A stretch of DNA of 58,584 bases from contig DXDM01000055.1 of assembly GCA_019115485.1 (NCBI GenBank), forward strand, positions 1-58,584, written 5' to 3'. Below the pieces are notes generated by a model. That model was not told the origin of the DNA, ran no database searches, and saw nothing but the letters and a program-made list of their open reading frames with translations. Source of the stretch: Candidatus Barnesiella excrementavium (GTDB lineage Bacteria > Bacteroidota > Bacteroidia > Bacteroidales > Barnesiellaceae). Below are positions 12,952 to 35,013 of the stretch, in pieces; the first letter of the stretch is position 1, and each line of letters begins with the position of its first letter. The translations under genes and the position numbers were made by a program.

Positions 12952-14493
12952 ATGAAAAAGTCGACGATTTGGTTATTGGCCATAATCATGGCACTCACCT
13001 TTATCGGGTTGCTCTACATACAAATCATGTATATGGAGAACATGATAAAGATGAGAAACGAGCAATTTACCGAGGCTGTCAAACGCAGCCTGTATGCGGT
13101 ATCGACAAGCCTTGAACTCGACGAAACCCAACGTTACCTGGACGAATATCTGGAAGAGGAGGAGAAAAAGATGCTCTCGTCGTATGAACAACGAAACGAC
13201 CAGCAGGACATCTCTACCCATCACCAGTTCTCCATTGTATCGCCCGACGGAACCGTGGCCAGCTTCTCGTTCAGAGAGCAGACCAGCACCATCATCACGC
13301 CGGCCGCTCCCCGTCCCAAAGACCATAATACGCTCATCAGCACCTATCGCAACATGCAGGAGGCTCGCAAGGGTCAGTACCTCTACCAAAAGGGATTGCT
13401 CAACGAGGTAATCCTCAACATGCTCAGCAAGGCCAGTACCCGGCCCATGATGGAGCGCATCGACATCAAGAAACTGGAAACCTATCTGAAATCGGAGTTT
13501 GAAAACAACGGGCTCAACCTCCCCTTCCAGTTTGCCATCTACAACAAGAACGACAAAATCCTGTACAGTTCCAACCAGTACGACCCGAAAATCGAGGGGA
13601 ACCTCTTCACACAAGCCATTTTCCCCAACGATCCGCCGGCCCGTATCAACTACTTGAAGGTCTACTTCCCTACGAAACGGAACTACATATCGAGCTCGGT
13701 CAAGTTCATGATACCCTCGTTTGCCTTCACCTTCATCTTGTTGGTCACCTTCCTGTTTACCATCATCGTGGCCTTCCGGCAAAAGAAGCTCACCGAGATG
13801 AAAAACGATTTCATCAACAACATGACGCATGAGTTCAAAACCCCTATATCGACCATCTCGCTGGCGGCACAGATGCTCAACGACCCCTCGGTAGCCAAGA
13901 GCCCGGCCCTGTTCCAGCACATATCGGGGGTCATCAACGACGAGACCAAGCGGTTGCGGTTCCAGGTCGAGAAGGTGCTTCAAATGTCGATGTTCGACCG
14001 GCAAAAGACCCTCATGAAACTGCACAACGTCGACGTGAACGACATCGTGACCAGTGTCATGAGTACCTTCAAACTCAAAGTCGAGAAATACGGCGGAGTC
14101 ATCGATGCCGACCTCGAAGCCGAGGACGCTATTGTGTCGGTCGACGAGATGCACTTTACCAACGTTATCTTCAACCTGCTCGACAACGCCGTGAAATACC
14201 GCCGCGAGGAGGAGCCGCTGTCGCTCTTTATCCGCACCCGCACCGTCGGCGACAAGGTGGAAATATCGATTCGCGACAACGGTATCGGTATCAAACGGGA
14301 AGACTTGAAAAAAATATTCGACAAGTTCTATCGCGTATCTACGGGTAACCGCCACGACGTGAAAGGGTTCGGACTGGGCCTGGCCTACGTCCACAAAATC
14401 ATCACCGACCTCAAAGGCGACATTCGCGTAGAGAGTGAATTGAATCAAGGTTCGACATTTATAATAACACTACCACTAATAAAAAACAAATGA
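12952..14493 (+). CDS. rprX: Sensor histidine kinase, RprX-like
   Basis: A 513-residue membrane histidine kinase. Transmembrane segments are at about residues 5-26 and 253-275, with a periplasmic sensor region between them. The cytoplasmic part has an H-box (NNMTHEFKTPIST, phosphorylated His), an N-box (NVIFNLLDNAVKY), G1 (IRDNGIGI) and G2 (GFGLGLAYVHK). No HAMP domain is obvious between the second helix and the H-box. Sequence and order match RprX of Bacteroides fragilis, identified through effects on tetracycline resistance. The gene overlaps rprY by the ATGA junction (14490-14493), so the pair is translationally coupled. The signal sensed is not visible. Confidence 0.9.
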   Translation: MKKSTIWLLAIIMALTFIGLLYIQIMYMENMIKMRNEQFTEAVKRSLYAVSTSLELDETQRYLDEYLEEEEKKMLSSYEQRNDQQDISTHHQFSIVSPDGTVASFSFREQTSTIITPAAPRPKDHNTLISTYRNMQEARKGQYLYQKGLLNEVILNMLSKASTRPMMERIDIKKLETYLKSEFENNGLNLPFQFAIYNKNDKILYSSNQYDPKIEGNLFTQAIFPNDPPARINYLKVYFPTKRNYISSSVKFMIPSFAFTFILLVTFLFTIIVAFRQKKLTEMKNDFINNMTHEFKTPISTISLAAQMLNDPSVAKSPALFQHISGVINDETKRLRFQVEKVLQMSMFDRQKTLMKLHNVDVNDIVTSVMSTFKLKVEKYGGVIDADLEAEDAIVSVDEMHFTNVIFNLLDNAVKYRREEEPLSLFIRTRTVGDKVEISIRDNGIGIKREDLKKIFDKFYRVSTGNRHDVKGFGLGLAYVHKIITDLKGDIRVESELNQGSTFIITLPLIKNK

Positions 14494-15206
14494 TTATGGA
14501 AGAAAGATTGCGTATTCTGCTATGCGAAGATGACGAAAATCTTGGCATGCTGTTGAGAGAGTATTTGCAAGCTAAGGGCTATGCTGCCGACCTCTTCTCC
14601 GACGGAGAGAGCGGATACAAGGCATTCCTCAAAGGCAAATACGACTTGTGCGTACTCGACGTGATGATGCCCAAAAAAGACGGCTTCACGCTGGCACAAG
14701 AGATTCGTACCGTAAACGGTGAAGTTCCCATCATATTCTTGACTGCCAAATCGCTGAAAGAAGATATTCTCGAAGGTTTCAAAATCGGAGCCGACGACTA
14801 TATCACCAAACCGTTCAGCATGGAAGAGCTCGTGTTCCGTATCGAAGCCATCTTGCGTCGTGTAAAGGGCAAGAAGGGCAAAGAGGTGACCATGTACAAG
14901 ATTGGCCGCTTCACTTTCGATACCCAGAAACAGGTACTCGCCATCGACGACAAGAGCACCAAACTCACCACGAAGGAGTCGGAATTGCTCAGCCTCCTCT
15001 GCGCCCACGTCAACGAAATCCTCGAACGGAACTTCGCCCTCAAAACCATCTGGATCGACGACAACTATTTCAATGCCCGCAGCATGGACGTTTACATTAC
15101 CAAACTGCGTAAACACCTTAAAGATGATCCCTCAATCGAAATCATCAATATCCACGGCAAGGGCTACAAACTCATCGCTCCCGATGTCGAGGCAAAGACA
15201 AAATAA
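14490..15206 (+). CDS. rprY: OmpR-family response regulator, RprY-like
   Basis: A 238-residue response regulator. The receiver domain (about 1-125) has the acidic pair CEDD (Asp14, Asp15), phosphoacceptor Asp57 in CVLDVMMP, Thr in FLTAK and Lys in DDYITKPF. A C-terminal OmpR/PhoB winged helix (about 135-230) shows KLTTKESELLSLL and SMDVYITKLRKHL with the recognition helix. It closely resembles RprY, the partner of RprX. ATG 14490 overlaps the rprX stop; ATG 14496 (MEERLRILLCEDD) is an equally good start. A terminator follows at 15221. Confidence 0.93.
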   Translation: MIMEERLRILLCEDDENLGMLLREYLQAKGYAADLFSDGESGYKAFLKGKYDLCVLDVMMPKKDGFTLAQEIRTVNGEVPIIFLTAKSLKEDILEGFKIGADDYITKPFSMEELVFRIEAILRRVKGKKGKEVTMYKIGRFTFDTQKQVLAIDDKSTKLTTKESELLSLLCAHVNEILERNFALKTIWIDDNYFNARSMDVYITKLRKHLKDDPSIEIINIHGKGYKLIAPDVEAKTK

Positions 15207-31699: not shown

Positions 31700-34012
31700 T
31701 CAATTTCTGTTCAAGATTCCGGAATCCTTATCCCGGTTCTGCATTTTCAATTTTACACCCGATTTAGACTGACCAAACGAGAAGTTGTAAACGAGATTGA
31801 CATATACCATATTGGCATTGTTAACGATTCTTTCGGTTTCCGTCCGTCGCAGAAGCGATGTTCCGAACACAGATGTGACCTGTTTCCAGGAGTCATAGAA
31901 GGGGTATCTTATACCTCCGGTGAGGGTCAAGTTTTTAATGGGTTTATAAGACAACTCTACCGATGCCATACTGGGTATATTTTTCGTCGTTTGGCCGATA
32001 AGAGATTTCTTCTGAGTCTGATAGAATACCTGCAATCCCCATTGATGCCAGGCAAGATATACTGAGGGTATGATGGAATAGCCTGTATGATTCCATTTCG
32101 AGGCTCCCCTTTTATTTATCTGATGGAACACTTCGGAGTACAGTCTCAACCTGAGCATATTGTTTGAGAATGGATACCACTGTAAAAAAAAGCTGGCTTT
32201 CATGTTCTGTGCATAATCCAGGTTCCCAAATGTTTCGATGATGTTTGTATGGTCCGATTGGAAAATCGGAGCGATAGCATCTTTCGTATATGAATACCCC
32301 ACTTCTGCATTGATTATACATTTTTTGAACCCTTTGAAATAGGAGAATGAAAAATCGTGGTTATTGCTTGGGGTCAAATGGGGATTCCCGACAAAGATGT
32401 AATCGGGATCTTTATAATATGGATTATAAGTCAACGAAGAGACCGACGGATTTTCGGTATTTATTTCATAATTGAACATCAGGTCGGAGCTTGGGTCTAT
32501 GAAATATCCCCATTTTACCTGAGGGCGGAAATAGGTGAAGTTGTAGGTCTTGTTTTCGATGGTGGTAAAAATATGGTTGTTCACACCGGCGCTGATGCTG
32601 TAATTGAATCTGTCGCCCCACATGCCGGTTATTCCCAGATAGGAGTAGATTTCATGGGCCGTTATCTTGTTGTTCGACGGCAAGTTATTCTGAATGCTGT
32701 TGTTGTACATGTATCGGGACCCAGCATACAGATTCGCCGTTTTCATTTTATAGGTATACAAAGCTTCTCCAATAGCCGAATACTTGTCGGTATGTATTAC
32801 CGTTGCCGTTTCAAAATCGGGTTCTGCTTCCAGCAATTCCTGATACTCATAATCATAATCCGATTTGTAGTATGTACCGACGAGATTCACGATAAGCTCG
32901 TGTTTGGAGCCAAACGATTTACTGAAATACATATCCATGACCGGACTGATGTATTTGTCTTTGTCCCAACTCTCCCCTGTTTTATGGGATTCCTTACCGT
33001 CCACGCTTGACAGAATGTCCTGCACCGAAGACCGTCTGCGATTCAATGAGTTGAAGGAGAGTTTTGTACTGAACAGATAGTTATCGGCTTTTGCGTTGTT
33101 GAAACTGATTTCGGCCATCTGCTGCTCATAGGCATACGGGCTGTTGCAACCGCTCTTTCTCTTTTCAAAATCTGTTCCGCCGACGGAATAGGCCATTTCT
33201 TCGTCCAATACCCTTTTGTTGTAGTTCCTGTAATTGATATTATATGTCACACCAATCTGCGAATGGCCCCAGTTATATTTGAAGTTGACGACATTGTTGC
33301 CAAATCCTGTGGTTACGGCATTCTGAGTATTGACACCTACCAACCCTCCATTCTGTTTTTCCCGGGTCACCACATTGATTACGACCCCCAAGCCCATATT
33401 GGAGTATTGGACGGGCGGTTGGGTGTAATAGTCGATTTTTGCAATATCCTCAGGCGATATGACAGACAAGTCTATCGGCGTTGATGGTATACCATTGATC
33501 AGAATCTTCACGGCCTTGCCGTCGACCGACGAAACACTTTGATCGAGAACTTGAATCTTGGGCAGGAACTCCAACGCCGACAATGCACTGCTGTATCGCC
33601 CCTTTTCAGCCGAGGTCAGTCTATACTCCTTCTTATCGGCAAACCGTTTTACCAGGCTGGCAGACACGACTACCTCGTCCAAATCGAGGGACCGTTCTTT
33701 CAAGATAATAAGCCCGACATCGGTATTCCCGGCTACCGTAATTCCCGTGGAGTAATCTTCATAGCCTAAAAAAGAGATGTTCAATATATATTTACCATCG
33801 GCTACTTTCTCCAACTCGAATTGCCCCTTCCGGTTGGTCGTGCCCCCTTTACTGCTTGATGTATCATGCTCCTGATACAGCCTCACCGAGGCTCCGGCAA
33901 CAGGACTGTTCCCCGAATCTACGACCACCCCTTTTACCCAACCTTGTGCCCAAGCCGATACCGGAAACAGTATCCATAAAAGAGTTGTAACGATTGTTCT
34001 CACCTTCTTCAT
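31700..34012 (-). CDS. Outer-membrane beta-barrel family protein (TonB-receptor-like)
   Basis: I start at ATG 34012 (MKKVRTIVTTLLWILFPVSAWAQ, a clear signal peptide), not at the longer frame to 34102; the -7 box at 34033-34040 fits this. The 770-residue protein has a carboxypeptidase-regulatory-like beta-sandwich at about 25-105 (GVVVDSGNSPVAGASV), a plug-like domain at about 115-215 (LDEVVVSAS, KILINGIPS), and a large barrel of the OMP_b-brl_3 type. It lacks a SusD partner, so it is not a classic SusC. It probably sits in the outer membrane with TonB-like gating; the cargo is unknown. The upstream neighbour is a membrane-bound winged-helix regulator, probably its controller. Confidence 0.85.
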   Translation of the reverse strand: MKKVRTIVTTLLWILFPVSAWAQGWVKGVVVDSGNSPVAGASVRLYQEHDTSSSKGGTTNRKGQFELEKVADGKYILNISFLGYEDYSTGITVAGNTDVGLIILKERSLDLDEVVVSASLVKRFADKKEYRLTSAEKGRYSSALSALEFLPKIQVLDQSVSSVDGKAVKILINGIPSTPIDLSVISPEDIAKIDYYTQPPVQYSNMGLGVVINVVTREKQNGGLVGVNTQNAVTTGFGNNVVNFKYNWGHSQIGVTYNINYRNYNKRVLDEEMAYSVGGTDFEKRKSGCNSPYAYEQQMAEISFNNAKADNYLFSTKLSFNSLNRRRSSVQDILSSVDGKESHKTGESWDKDKYISPVMDMYFSKSFGSKHELIVNLVGTYYKSDYDYEYQELLEAEPDFETATVIHTDKYSAIGEALYTYKMKTANLYAGSRYMYNNSIQNNLPSNNKITAHEIYSYLGITGMWGDRFNYSISAGVNNHIFTTIENKTYNFTYFRPQVKWGYFIDPSSDLMFNYEINTENPSVSSLTYNPYYKDPDYIFVGNPHLTPSNNHDFSFSYFKGFKKCIINAEVGYSYTKDAIAPIFQSDHTNIIETFGNLDYAQNMKASFFLQWYPFSNNMLRLRLYSEVFHQINKRGASKWNHTGYSIIPSVYLAWHQWGLQVFYQTQKKSLIGQTTKNIPSMASVELSYKPIKNLTLTGGIRYPFYDSWKQVTSVFGTSLLRRTETERIVNNANMVYVNLVYNFSFGQSKSGVKLKMQNRDKDSGILNRN

Positions 34013-34032
34013 AATTTGCCGTTTTTTGCTGA

Positions 34033-34040
34033 CAAATATA
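34033..34040 (-). promoter_or_regulatory. -7 promoter box (TATATTTG) of the beta-barrel gene
   Basis: Minus strand TATATTTG; start near 34026 and a leader of about 14 nt. The phased GCTGACATTT repeats lie 47-67 bp upstream of this start. Confidence 0.6.
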
Positions 34041-34072
34041 TGAGCAAGGTGGTAAAAAGTCGTTATAAAAGA

Positions 34073-34110
34073 GCTGACATTTGGCTGACATTTAGCCAAC
34101 AATACGCTGA
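34073..34110. promoter_or_regulatory. Helically phased GCTGACATTT repeats (candidate winged-helix regulator site)
   Basis: GCTGACATTT occurs at 34073-34082 and 34084-34093, period 11 bp, and GCTGAT follows at 34106, two further periods away. A related GCTGACAAAT lies at 34028-34037 over the -7 box. Direct repeats at 11 bp are typical of OmpR/PhoB-type sites; the adjacent regulator has such a domain. Confidence 0.55.
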
Positions 34111-34113
34111 TAA

Positions 34114-34881
34114 TCAGCTTTTCTTTGTTTTAAGTACATAAAAATGCCCCTTTTCTGCCTCAATCTTCACGTTGCATGCTTTTTCCAAAACCGGCTTTAT
34201 CCGGCGAACCAATGTATAAAGAGTATCGCGAGCATCTTCTTTTCCGGGCCAAAGCGTGTGACATATCTCTTCCACCGGCAATCGATTACCGTCTGCTGCT
34301 ATAAACATCTGCATCAGCCGATGTTGCATTGGAGTGAAATATATCTCCTGCCTCTTTTCATTCCAAAAACGATTTGAAGATTTGGAGAAATACAATGTTC
34401 CAACACTTATCGTTTCCGATTCGATGATATTATTGATATTCTCGGACGGCTTCATACGGAAAAACATAATGGACGACAGCCCCCATAATATACTTATAAT
34501 AAACAGTATGGAAGGCAGTTTTTGTTCCGACATGCCAAATATAGCAGCCTTCGAACAATTGGGATAGGCTCTGATATACAGCCGCTCGTTACCCACCTTG
34601 TAACTCATCGTATCGCTGCAAAAGGTCAGATTGCTGGGGGCCTCTGTACAAATAGACAAGTAAGAAGTCGCTCTCAATTCATCTATTTTCAATTTAGACC
34701 TGAAAACCCTCAATGTATCGACCGTAACGCGGTCGGTGCTTTTATCTAAGATAGTCTGTGCCAAAGCCTGATTTACATCTGCTATGATATTCTCTTTGGT
34801 GGTTGCATAATTCCCAAAGCCCAACATGAGTGACGGAAGCATTAAAGAGAAAAAGACTATGATTGCAGCTATTGGTTTCAT
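34114..34881 (-). CDS. Membrane-bound winged-helix transcriptional regulator (ToxR/CadC-like, reversed topology)
   Basis: A 255-residue protein with two transmembrane helices (about 4-22 and 122-141), a periplasmic loop of about 100 residues between them carrying Cys78, Cys88 and Cys109, and a cytoplasmic C-terminal OmpR/PhoB-type winged helix at about 158-250 (QEIYFTPMQHRLMQMF, PVEEICHTLW, RDTLYTLVRRIKPVLEK, wing EAEKGHFYVL). It thus looks like a one-component membrane regulator, with the DNA-binding domain at the C-terminus instead of the N-terminus as in ToxR. It lies 101 bp upstream of the beta-barrel gene on the same strand. A promoter box is at 34915-34922. Control of the beta-barrel gene is inferred from position and the phased repeats. 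Confidence 0.82.
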   Translation of the reverse strand: MKPIAAIIVFFSLMLPSLMLGFGNYATTKENIIADVNQALAQTILDKSTDRVTVDTLRVFRSKLKIDELRATSYLSICTEAPSNLTFCSDTMSYKVGNERLYIRAYPNCSKAAIFGMSEQKLPSILFIISILWGLSSIMFFRMKPSENINNIIESETISVGTLYFSKSSNRFWNEKRQEIYFTPMQHRLMQMFIAADGNRLPVEEICHTLWPGKEDARDTLYTLVRRIKPVLEKACNVKIEAEKGHFYVLKTKKS

Positions 34882-34914
34882 ATTATTCTTTTAATCATGA
34901 GGTATTAGTATCTA

Positions 34915-34922
34915 CAAATATA
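34915..34922 (-). promoter_or_regulatory. -7 promoter box (TATATTTG) of the membrane regulator gene
   Basis: Minus strand TATATTTG; start near 34908. A GGTGACAAAT sequence (34939-34948), one base from GCTGACAAAT, lies just upstream and could allow autoregulation. Confidence 0.5.
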
Positions 34923-35013
34923 GTGAAAGAAGAACTGGGTGACAAATGGGAACAAAAGTTTTTCATGAATATGCAAGGCAACAAGGCTATTCGCTTCTTT
35001 TTCTATCAACACC

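Follow-up and report, generated by a model that had tools for sequence, protein, structure and literature searches.

In the 58,584-nucleotide stretch of Candidatus Barnesiella excrementavium DNA analyzed here (contig DXDM01000055.1; hereafter the window), a gene for a predicted membrane-bound transcription regulator lies directly upstream of a gene for an outer-membrane β-barrel, and the short region between them carries an array of TGTCAG-type repeats at 11-bp steps. A preliminary description of this DNA had read the pair as a one-component system. The genes, the predicted parts of the regulator, and the promoter elements are arranged as follows.

34114..34881, minus strand: regulator gene, 255 amino acids, with predicted transmembrane segment 1 (TM1), small extracytoplasmic domain, TM2, and C-terminal OmpR/PhoB-type winged helix
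34810..34875, minus strand: predicted TM1, residues 3-24 (hydropathy windows over 1.6; model helix 3-46)
34522..34809, minus strand: predicted periplasmic sensor domain, residues 25-120, with Cys78, Cys88, and Cys109
34453..34521, minus strand: predicted TM2, residues 121-143 (hydropathy and model)
34120..34422, minus strand: winged-helix DNA-binding domain, residues 154-254 (recognition helix at about 218-235)
34107..34112, minus strand: half-site 4 (distal), TATCAG, placed by sequence and 11-bp register
34096..34101, minus strand: half-site 3, TGTTGG, absent from the preliminary description
34085..34090, minus strand: half-site 2, TGTCAG
34074..34079, minus strand: half-site 1 (proximal), TGTCAG, starting 39 bp before the -7 box
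34033..34040, minus strand: -7 box TATATTTG (TAnnTTTG) of the barrel promoter (38-39 bp spacing in 46 sites)
31700..34012, minus strand: target gene, outer-membrane barrel, 770 amino acids, CarbopepD_reg_2 and OMP_b-brl_3, with its ATG at 34012

The regulator is encoded by a 255-residue open reading frame (ORF) with two hydrophobic segments, immediately upstream of the OMP_b-brl_3 gene, and contains Cys78, Cys88, and Cys109; on these points, as on the C-terminal winged helix, the preliminary description was correct. In the predicted model, the winged helix is clear and consists of an N-terminal sheet, three helices, and a C-terminal hairpin, which is the OmpR/PhoB-type fold; chains of the TcpP/ToxR complex and of CadC are among its fold matches. 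Residues 1-143 model as TM–sensor–TM, and no receiver domain was matched in Pfam. By prediction, the DNA-binding domain and the TM segments reside in one protein lacking a kinase or receiver domain, as in transmembrane one-component regulators (TTRs).

The sensor domain has no Pfam match over the cut-off. Its isolated model (predicted local distance difference test, pLDDT, of 82.6) found no solved structure at E ≤ 0.001; the top hit, a Leishmania doublet-microtubule chain at E 0.14, was followed by dynein light chains, and we took this as no match. When the full model was compared, all fold matches were confined to the winged helix and did not cover the sensor, and a search of 13 genomes at E ≤ 1 gave no sensor match outside the regulator family. 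The end of the sensor and TM2 resemble an RprX-like kinase by eye. The idea that the sensor was borrowed from such a kinase was rejected, as hhalign against a 27-row alignment of RprX-like kinases returned a probability of 0.03-0.11%, compared with 0.3% for a reversed decoy.

The barrel protein matches PF14905 (61.8 bits, cut-off 27) and PF13715 (61.8 bits, cut-off 32.2), that is, a barrel combined with the N-terminal carboxypeptidase-regulatory domain of TonB-dependent transporters. A Plug domain was not matched by profile in the window barrel; the barrel at locus L012 has a Plug match below the cut-off. Judging from its family, the barrel is plausibly an importer.

Upstream of the barrel gene, the repeats listed in the preliminary description (GCTGACATTT at 34073 and 34084, GCTGAT at 34106) are all present. 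An in-register repeat at 34095 had been overlooked, so that the array comprises four half-sites at 11-bp steps. The letters GCTGACAAAT, reported over the -7 box, are there as well, at a frequency no higher than chance: TTTGTCAG occupies this position in 1 of the 46 spaced sites described below, namely that of the window. The window barrel promoter has no TTTG at -33. In the window genome (2.68 Mb), the strict repeat pair TGTCAG-N5-TGTCAG occurs once. Besides the true site, a search for further targets in this genome (≤3 mismatches, 33-bp gap) returned two sites with 3 mismatches; the backward control gave one, and the two were taken as chance.

To follow the pair through other genomes, we used 41 loci from a genome-contig scan (L005–L045), 42 with L003 from a same-genus genome and 43 with the window. 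The regulators of L005–L045 are 30-66% identical and come from records named Bacteroides, Phocaeicola, Prevotella and relatives, Parabacteroides, Muribaculaceae, and others. The barrel lies downstream on the regulator strand in 33 of the 42 loci; 29 of these barrels were recognized by phmmer to the window barrel and four (L009, L011, L012, and L013) by position and a similar start, L012 being shown to contain OMP_b-brl_3. Elsewhere the barrel is divergent from the regulator (L030, L034) or upstream of it with a small-protein gene downstream (L008), or the downstream gene encodes the small protein (L031, L033) or a TMEM260-like protein (L027, and as second gene in L042; PF11028, 260 bits). No known target adjoins the regulator in L035 and L037. 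Within the genus, a barrel ortholog (94-100% identity) is found in two of nine genomes, the same two that carry the regulator, and the other seven yield only 23-25% matches.

The family alignment of the regulator (A3) has 37 rows; it omits L003, L017, L032, L034, and L041, which are close to other rows, and L039, whose record breaks the regulator ORF into two. The recognition helix is the best-conserved of ten segments compared (mean majority residue 0.74, versus 0.50 for the sensor and 0.27 for the linker), as expected with a constant operator. Cys207, a cytoplasmic residue of the winged helix, is kept in 35 of the 37 rows. Two homologs, P0026 (361 amino acids) and P0028 (409 amino acids), are listed with other Pfam domains (PF13496, PF00905) and are possibly gene-call or assembly fusions. 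Among viral contigs, the regulator search gave one short partial match.

The -7 motif TAnnTTTG served to align the intergenic regions, with the best-scoring box chosen for each locus. The operator consists of up to four half-sites at 11-bp steps with the consensus TGTCAG, and its last half-site starts 38 or 39 bp before TAnnTTTG in 39 of the 43 loci, window included. The four exceptions are L014 (-7 motif one base off), L043 (no TA), L035, and L037. Half-sites were counted in 37 loci, after removal of the near-duplicates L017, L018, L022, L032, L033, and L041 from the 43. Downstream of the regulator, TGTCAG is present in 35 of these 37 loci and the 11-bp pair in 27; in 200 dinucleotide shuffles, a mean of 3.48 loci (maximum 9) had a half-site and none had the pair in any shuffle. 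Loss of the repeats from orthologous intergenic regions had been named beforehand as the observation that would speak against their role, and the repeats are conserved. Their 11-bp step, roughly a turn of the helix, agrees with the direct-repeat operators of OmpR/PhoB-type winged helices.

The operator also travels with the regulator at the level of whole genomes. Among 393 genomes of the order, the strict pattern TGTCAGN5TGTCAG-N31..34-TAnnTTTG occurs in five (backward control, none) and the regulator, searched by profile A3, in eight, which include all five operator genomes (p 7e-10). In the remaining three regulator genomes, a strict pair likewise faces a barrel, but the half-site next to the box, at 38-39 bp, is a degenerate one in register with the pair; G264 and G332 have this arrangement downstream of the regulator, and in G113 it faces a divergent barrel. 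In one 15-genome family, the operator is present in nine genomes and the regulator in ten, and all nine operator genomes carry the regulator; the tenth regulator genome is G403. Across the 41 genomes behind L005–L045, the strict pair gives 80 overlapping matches, compared with 10 for the backward control, and is found at least once in 36.

The collected loci contain 79 distinct strict-pair contexts. In 46 of these, TAnnTTTG follows at the conserved distance from the start of the last half-site (38 bp in 28, 39 bp in 18). Thirty of the 46 spaced sites precede a barrel gene, nine a gene for a TMEM260-like predicted protein O-mannosyltransferase, six a small-protein gene, and one (L042) a short ORF with a TMEM260-like gene after it. 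TMEM260-like proteins were called by PF11028 in the two that were scanned and in the others by a profile built from those two. The same three target classes recur at unlinked sites in different genera; among the sites seen, barrel and TMEM260-like genes preceded by a spaced operator never occur in the same genome. Of the 33 pairs lacking the motif at 38-39 bp, seven precede a target (six barrels and one small protein) and 26 none; at four of these six barrel sites (L008, G113, G264, and G332), the motif stands at 49-50 bp, one degenerate half-site further.

TMEM260-like genes under the operator were seen at L027, L042 (second gene), L049, and L051–L057. In the 15-genome family, such a gene is the target of eight of the nine operators, the ninth (L050) preceding a barrel. 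The small protein is found under the operator at L098, L099, L111, L112, L113, L114, L030, L031, L033, and L008. Its members (∼160-230 amino acids) show an N-terminal hydrophobic stretch by eye and a recurring D..[FY]G[FY]...YP motif; the four scanned (161-223 amino acids) had no Pfam match over the cut-off, one of them reaching PsbP at E 0.098.

The operator accompanies the barrel also where the barrel is divergent from or unlinked to the regulator. In Prevotella disiens (L035), there is no array at the regulator; a triple array stands before a barrel gene on another contig, at 38 bp from TAATTTTG. In Hoylesella enoeca (L037), the sole strict site lies ∼53 kb from the regulator, on what appears to be the same contig, before a small-protein gene. 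G118 encodes the regulator on contig C3 and has the operator on C44, before a TMEM260-like gene. Away from the regulator, a second operator is found before a small-protein gene in L017, L019, L022, and L021, which come from two strains of Bacteroides mediterraneensis, from Phocaeicola plebeius, and from an uncultured relative. The regulator therefore likely acts in trans on barrels, on the small protein, and, in some lineages, on the TMEM260-like predicted O-mannosyltransferase. The barrel, originally proposed as the target, remains one, within a target set that is wider than a single barrel. In Segatella copri iA622 (L033), the half-sites that face the barrel in L034 persist without a barrel or -7 motif there, possibly reflecting loss of the target.

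Taken together, the TGTCAG repeats at 11-bp steps ahead of the barrel gene are likely bound by the regulator, which is predicted to activate this gene on an extracytoplasmic signal, a reading to which we assign a probability of roughly 0.78. The protein would be tethered to the inner membrane with its sensor in the periplasm, where the sensor would detect something outside that membrane, and a change at the sensor would pass through the TM helices. PhoB domains bind head to tail on their own box, and the winged-helix domains of the regulator would line up similarly on successive half-sites, placing the proximal one close to the polymerase. Judging by spacing, ∼8-9 bp separate the end of the array from the -33 position downstream of it, and the array overlaps neither -33 nor -7. 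This placement, just short of the -33 region with the core elements left uncovered, favors activation.

The same regulator and operator could also serve repression, with the array-bound protein blocking the promoter until a signal releases it. Direct-repeat operators of the OmpR/PhoB type serve both activation and repression, and a third of the spaced promoters (15 of 46) retain a -33 TTTG with a 20-bp spacer. Yet the array stops short of both core elements, and its fixed phase to the -7 box (28 sites at 38 bp, 18 at 39 bp) fits a contact with polymerase, so that we regard repression as rather unlikely.

The preliminary description had further suggested that the envelope signal sensed may be a thiol or redox state and that the regulator controls its own gene as well as the barrel. 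A disulfide could form in the near relatives (alignment A1, 32 rows), in which Cys78 and Cys109 are invariant and Cys88 is kept in 29 rows, and a structural disulfide is possible in this clade. Joint retention of Cys78 and Cys109 is, as a rule, confined to this clade. In the wider family, however, Cys78 is found in 14 of 37 rows and Cys109 in 32, and four rows (L021, L022, L027, and L045) have a single periplasmic Cys; the array is kept at all four of these loci, in degenerate form in L045. A family-wide thiol switch is accordingly unlikely. As for the regulator's own gene, the letters GGTGACAAAT are indeed present before it, though not above chance: upstream of the regulator, a half-site on the regulator strand occurs in 1 of 37 loci (shuffle mean 1.38) and the pair in none, and the same-genus relative L003 differs in sequence at the GGTGACAAAT position. 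The opposite-strand pair occurs upstream in two of the 37 loci, which are those with divergent barrels (L030, L034). Conserved repeats are thus missing from the region before the regulator gene, and nothing points to autoregulation. Thus, a membrane regulator paired with a barrel through 11-bp direct repeats is retained from the proposed one-component system, self-control and thiol sensing are not, and a thiol sensor acting on barrel and own gene has little probability.

Winged helices of the OmpR/PhoB class share direct-repeat operators, and another OmpR-type regulator might bind the array while the membrane protein regulates something else. The window itself encodes a candidate at 12952-15206 on the plus strand, an RprXY-like system in which the genes for an RprX-like sensor kinase (513 amino acids, HisKA over the cut-off) and a response regulator (238 amino acids, Response_reg and Trans_reg_C over the cut-off) overlap by 4 bp. 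The operator, however, is found only together with the membrane regulator (five of five operator genomes among the 393, nine of nine in the 15-genome family). RprX-like kinases are far commoner, with 7956 of 7999 scored candidates at E ≤ 0.001 versus 127 of 327 for the regulator, and with so many more relatives they would not predict the distribution of the operator; we consider such a binder very improbable. That the repeats are chance or low-complexity sequence which lies near a Bacteroidales promoter and has no part in regulation can be dismissed in view of their conservation, spacing, and co-occurrence with the regulator, even though 26 of the 79 strict pairs look like chance and the ∼0.3 copies that we estimate per genome of this size mean that the single copy in the window genome is no proof by itself.

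Several observations weigh against activation of the barrel by the membrane regulator. The strict pair alone is not specific, since 33 of the 79 pairs lack the spaced motif and 26 have no known target, and proteins encoded at these very sites supplied the profiles of the three target classes, which are thus defined by the data. G403 (L096) has the regulator without an adjoining array within one mismatch in a 2.5-kb locus that ends ∼300 bp past the gene, and its genome has no strict spaced operator. L035 and L037 lack an array beside the regulator and have arrays elsewhere in their genomes, and five of the 41 genomes lack a strict pair, their regulator loci carrying degenerate arrays. The window protein itself scores 23.9 bits against PF00486, under the cut-off of 26.2; precomputed PF00486 matches are present on many of its homologs. 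With a -33 TTTG in 15 of the 46 promoters, not all of them look activator-dependent. Finally, binding of the operator by the regulator, although likely, is a sequence-based prediction, and activation rather than repression is predicted from position alone.

More tentatively, the regulator may represent a family of membrane-tethered activators with inverted domain order that respond to one envelope signal through a portable TGTCAG operator, and for which each lineage has chosen one of three unrelated surface genes (for a barrel, a protein O-mannosyltransferase, or a small anchored protein) to do the same job; we hold this to be possible, with the odds somewhat against it. If true, transport and surface-protein glycosylation would be alternative outputs of one Bacteroidales envelope circuit. 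Activation through this operator would be a simple one-protein route by which an outside signal switches surface genes on. The operator ties two poorly known envelope genes to one switch and thereby offers a lead on their role, and the circuit is small and testable, with one regulator, an operator of ∼40 bp, one promoter geometry, and one strict site in the window genome.

According to the accessible portion of PMC10269533, one-component regulators bound to the membrane are a known class that is common in Bacteroidota. In the literature searched, including the accessible portions of PMC10434189, PMC10269533, and PMC11204068, the regulator is not described, and a description in subscription journals is possible. 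The same literature yielded neither a Bacteroidota membrane-bound regulator with a defined operator of the TGTCAG type nor the inverted domain order together with the present sensor, operator, and target set. Compared with PhoB/OmpR response regulators, the protein lacks a receiver domain and is, by prediction, anchored in the membrane. In ToxR and CadC, the winged helix is N-terminal and is followed by a single TM segment and a C-terminal sensor, whereas here the sensor, between two TM segments, comes first and the winged helix last. Operator and regulon differ as well, and no Pfam match over the cut-off or solved-structure match was found for the present sensor. The DNA-binding class and the sensor of neisserial Rsp differ from those of the window regulator. 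What the regulator shares with ToxR/CadC-type proteins, as far as these are covered in the accessible portion of PMC10269533, is extracytoplasmic input, membrane anchor, and OmpR/PhoB-type winged helix in one polypeptide; with Rsp, which joins a PilS sensor to a PilR DNA-binding domain and represses pilA (same source), it shares an N-terminal membrane receptor and a C-terminal DNA-binding domain. The hybrid two-component systems of Bacteroides likewise combine a membrane-spanning sensor and a DNA-binding domain in one Bacteroidales protein. They often adjoin outer-membrane transporter genes, and their DNA-binding domain is of the AraC type. In contrast to these systems, the regulator of the window has neither kinase nor receiver domain and, within 255 amino acids, uses a winged helix.
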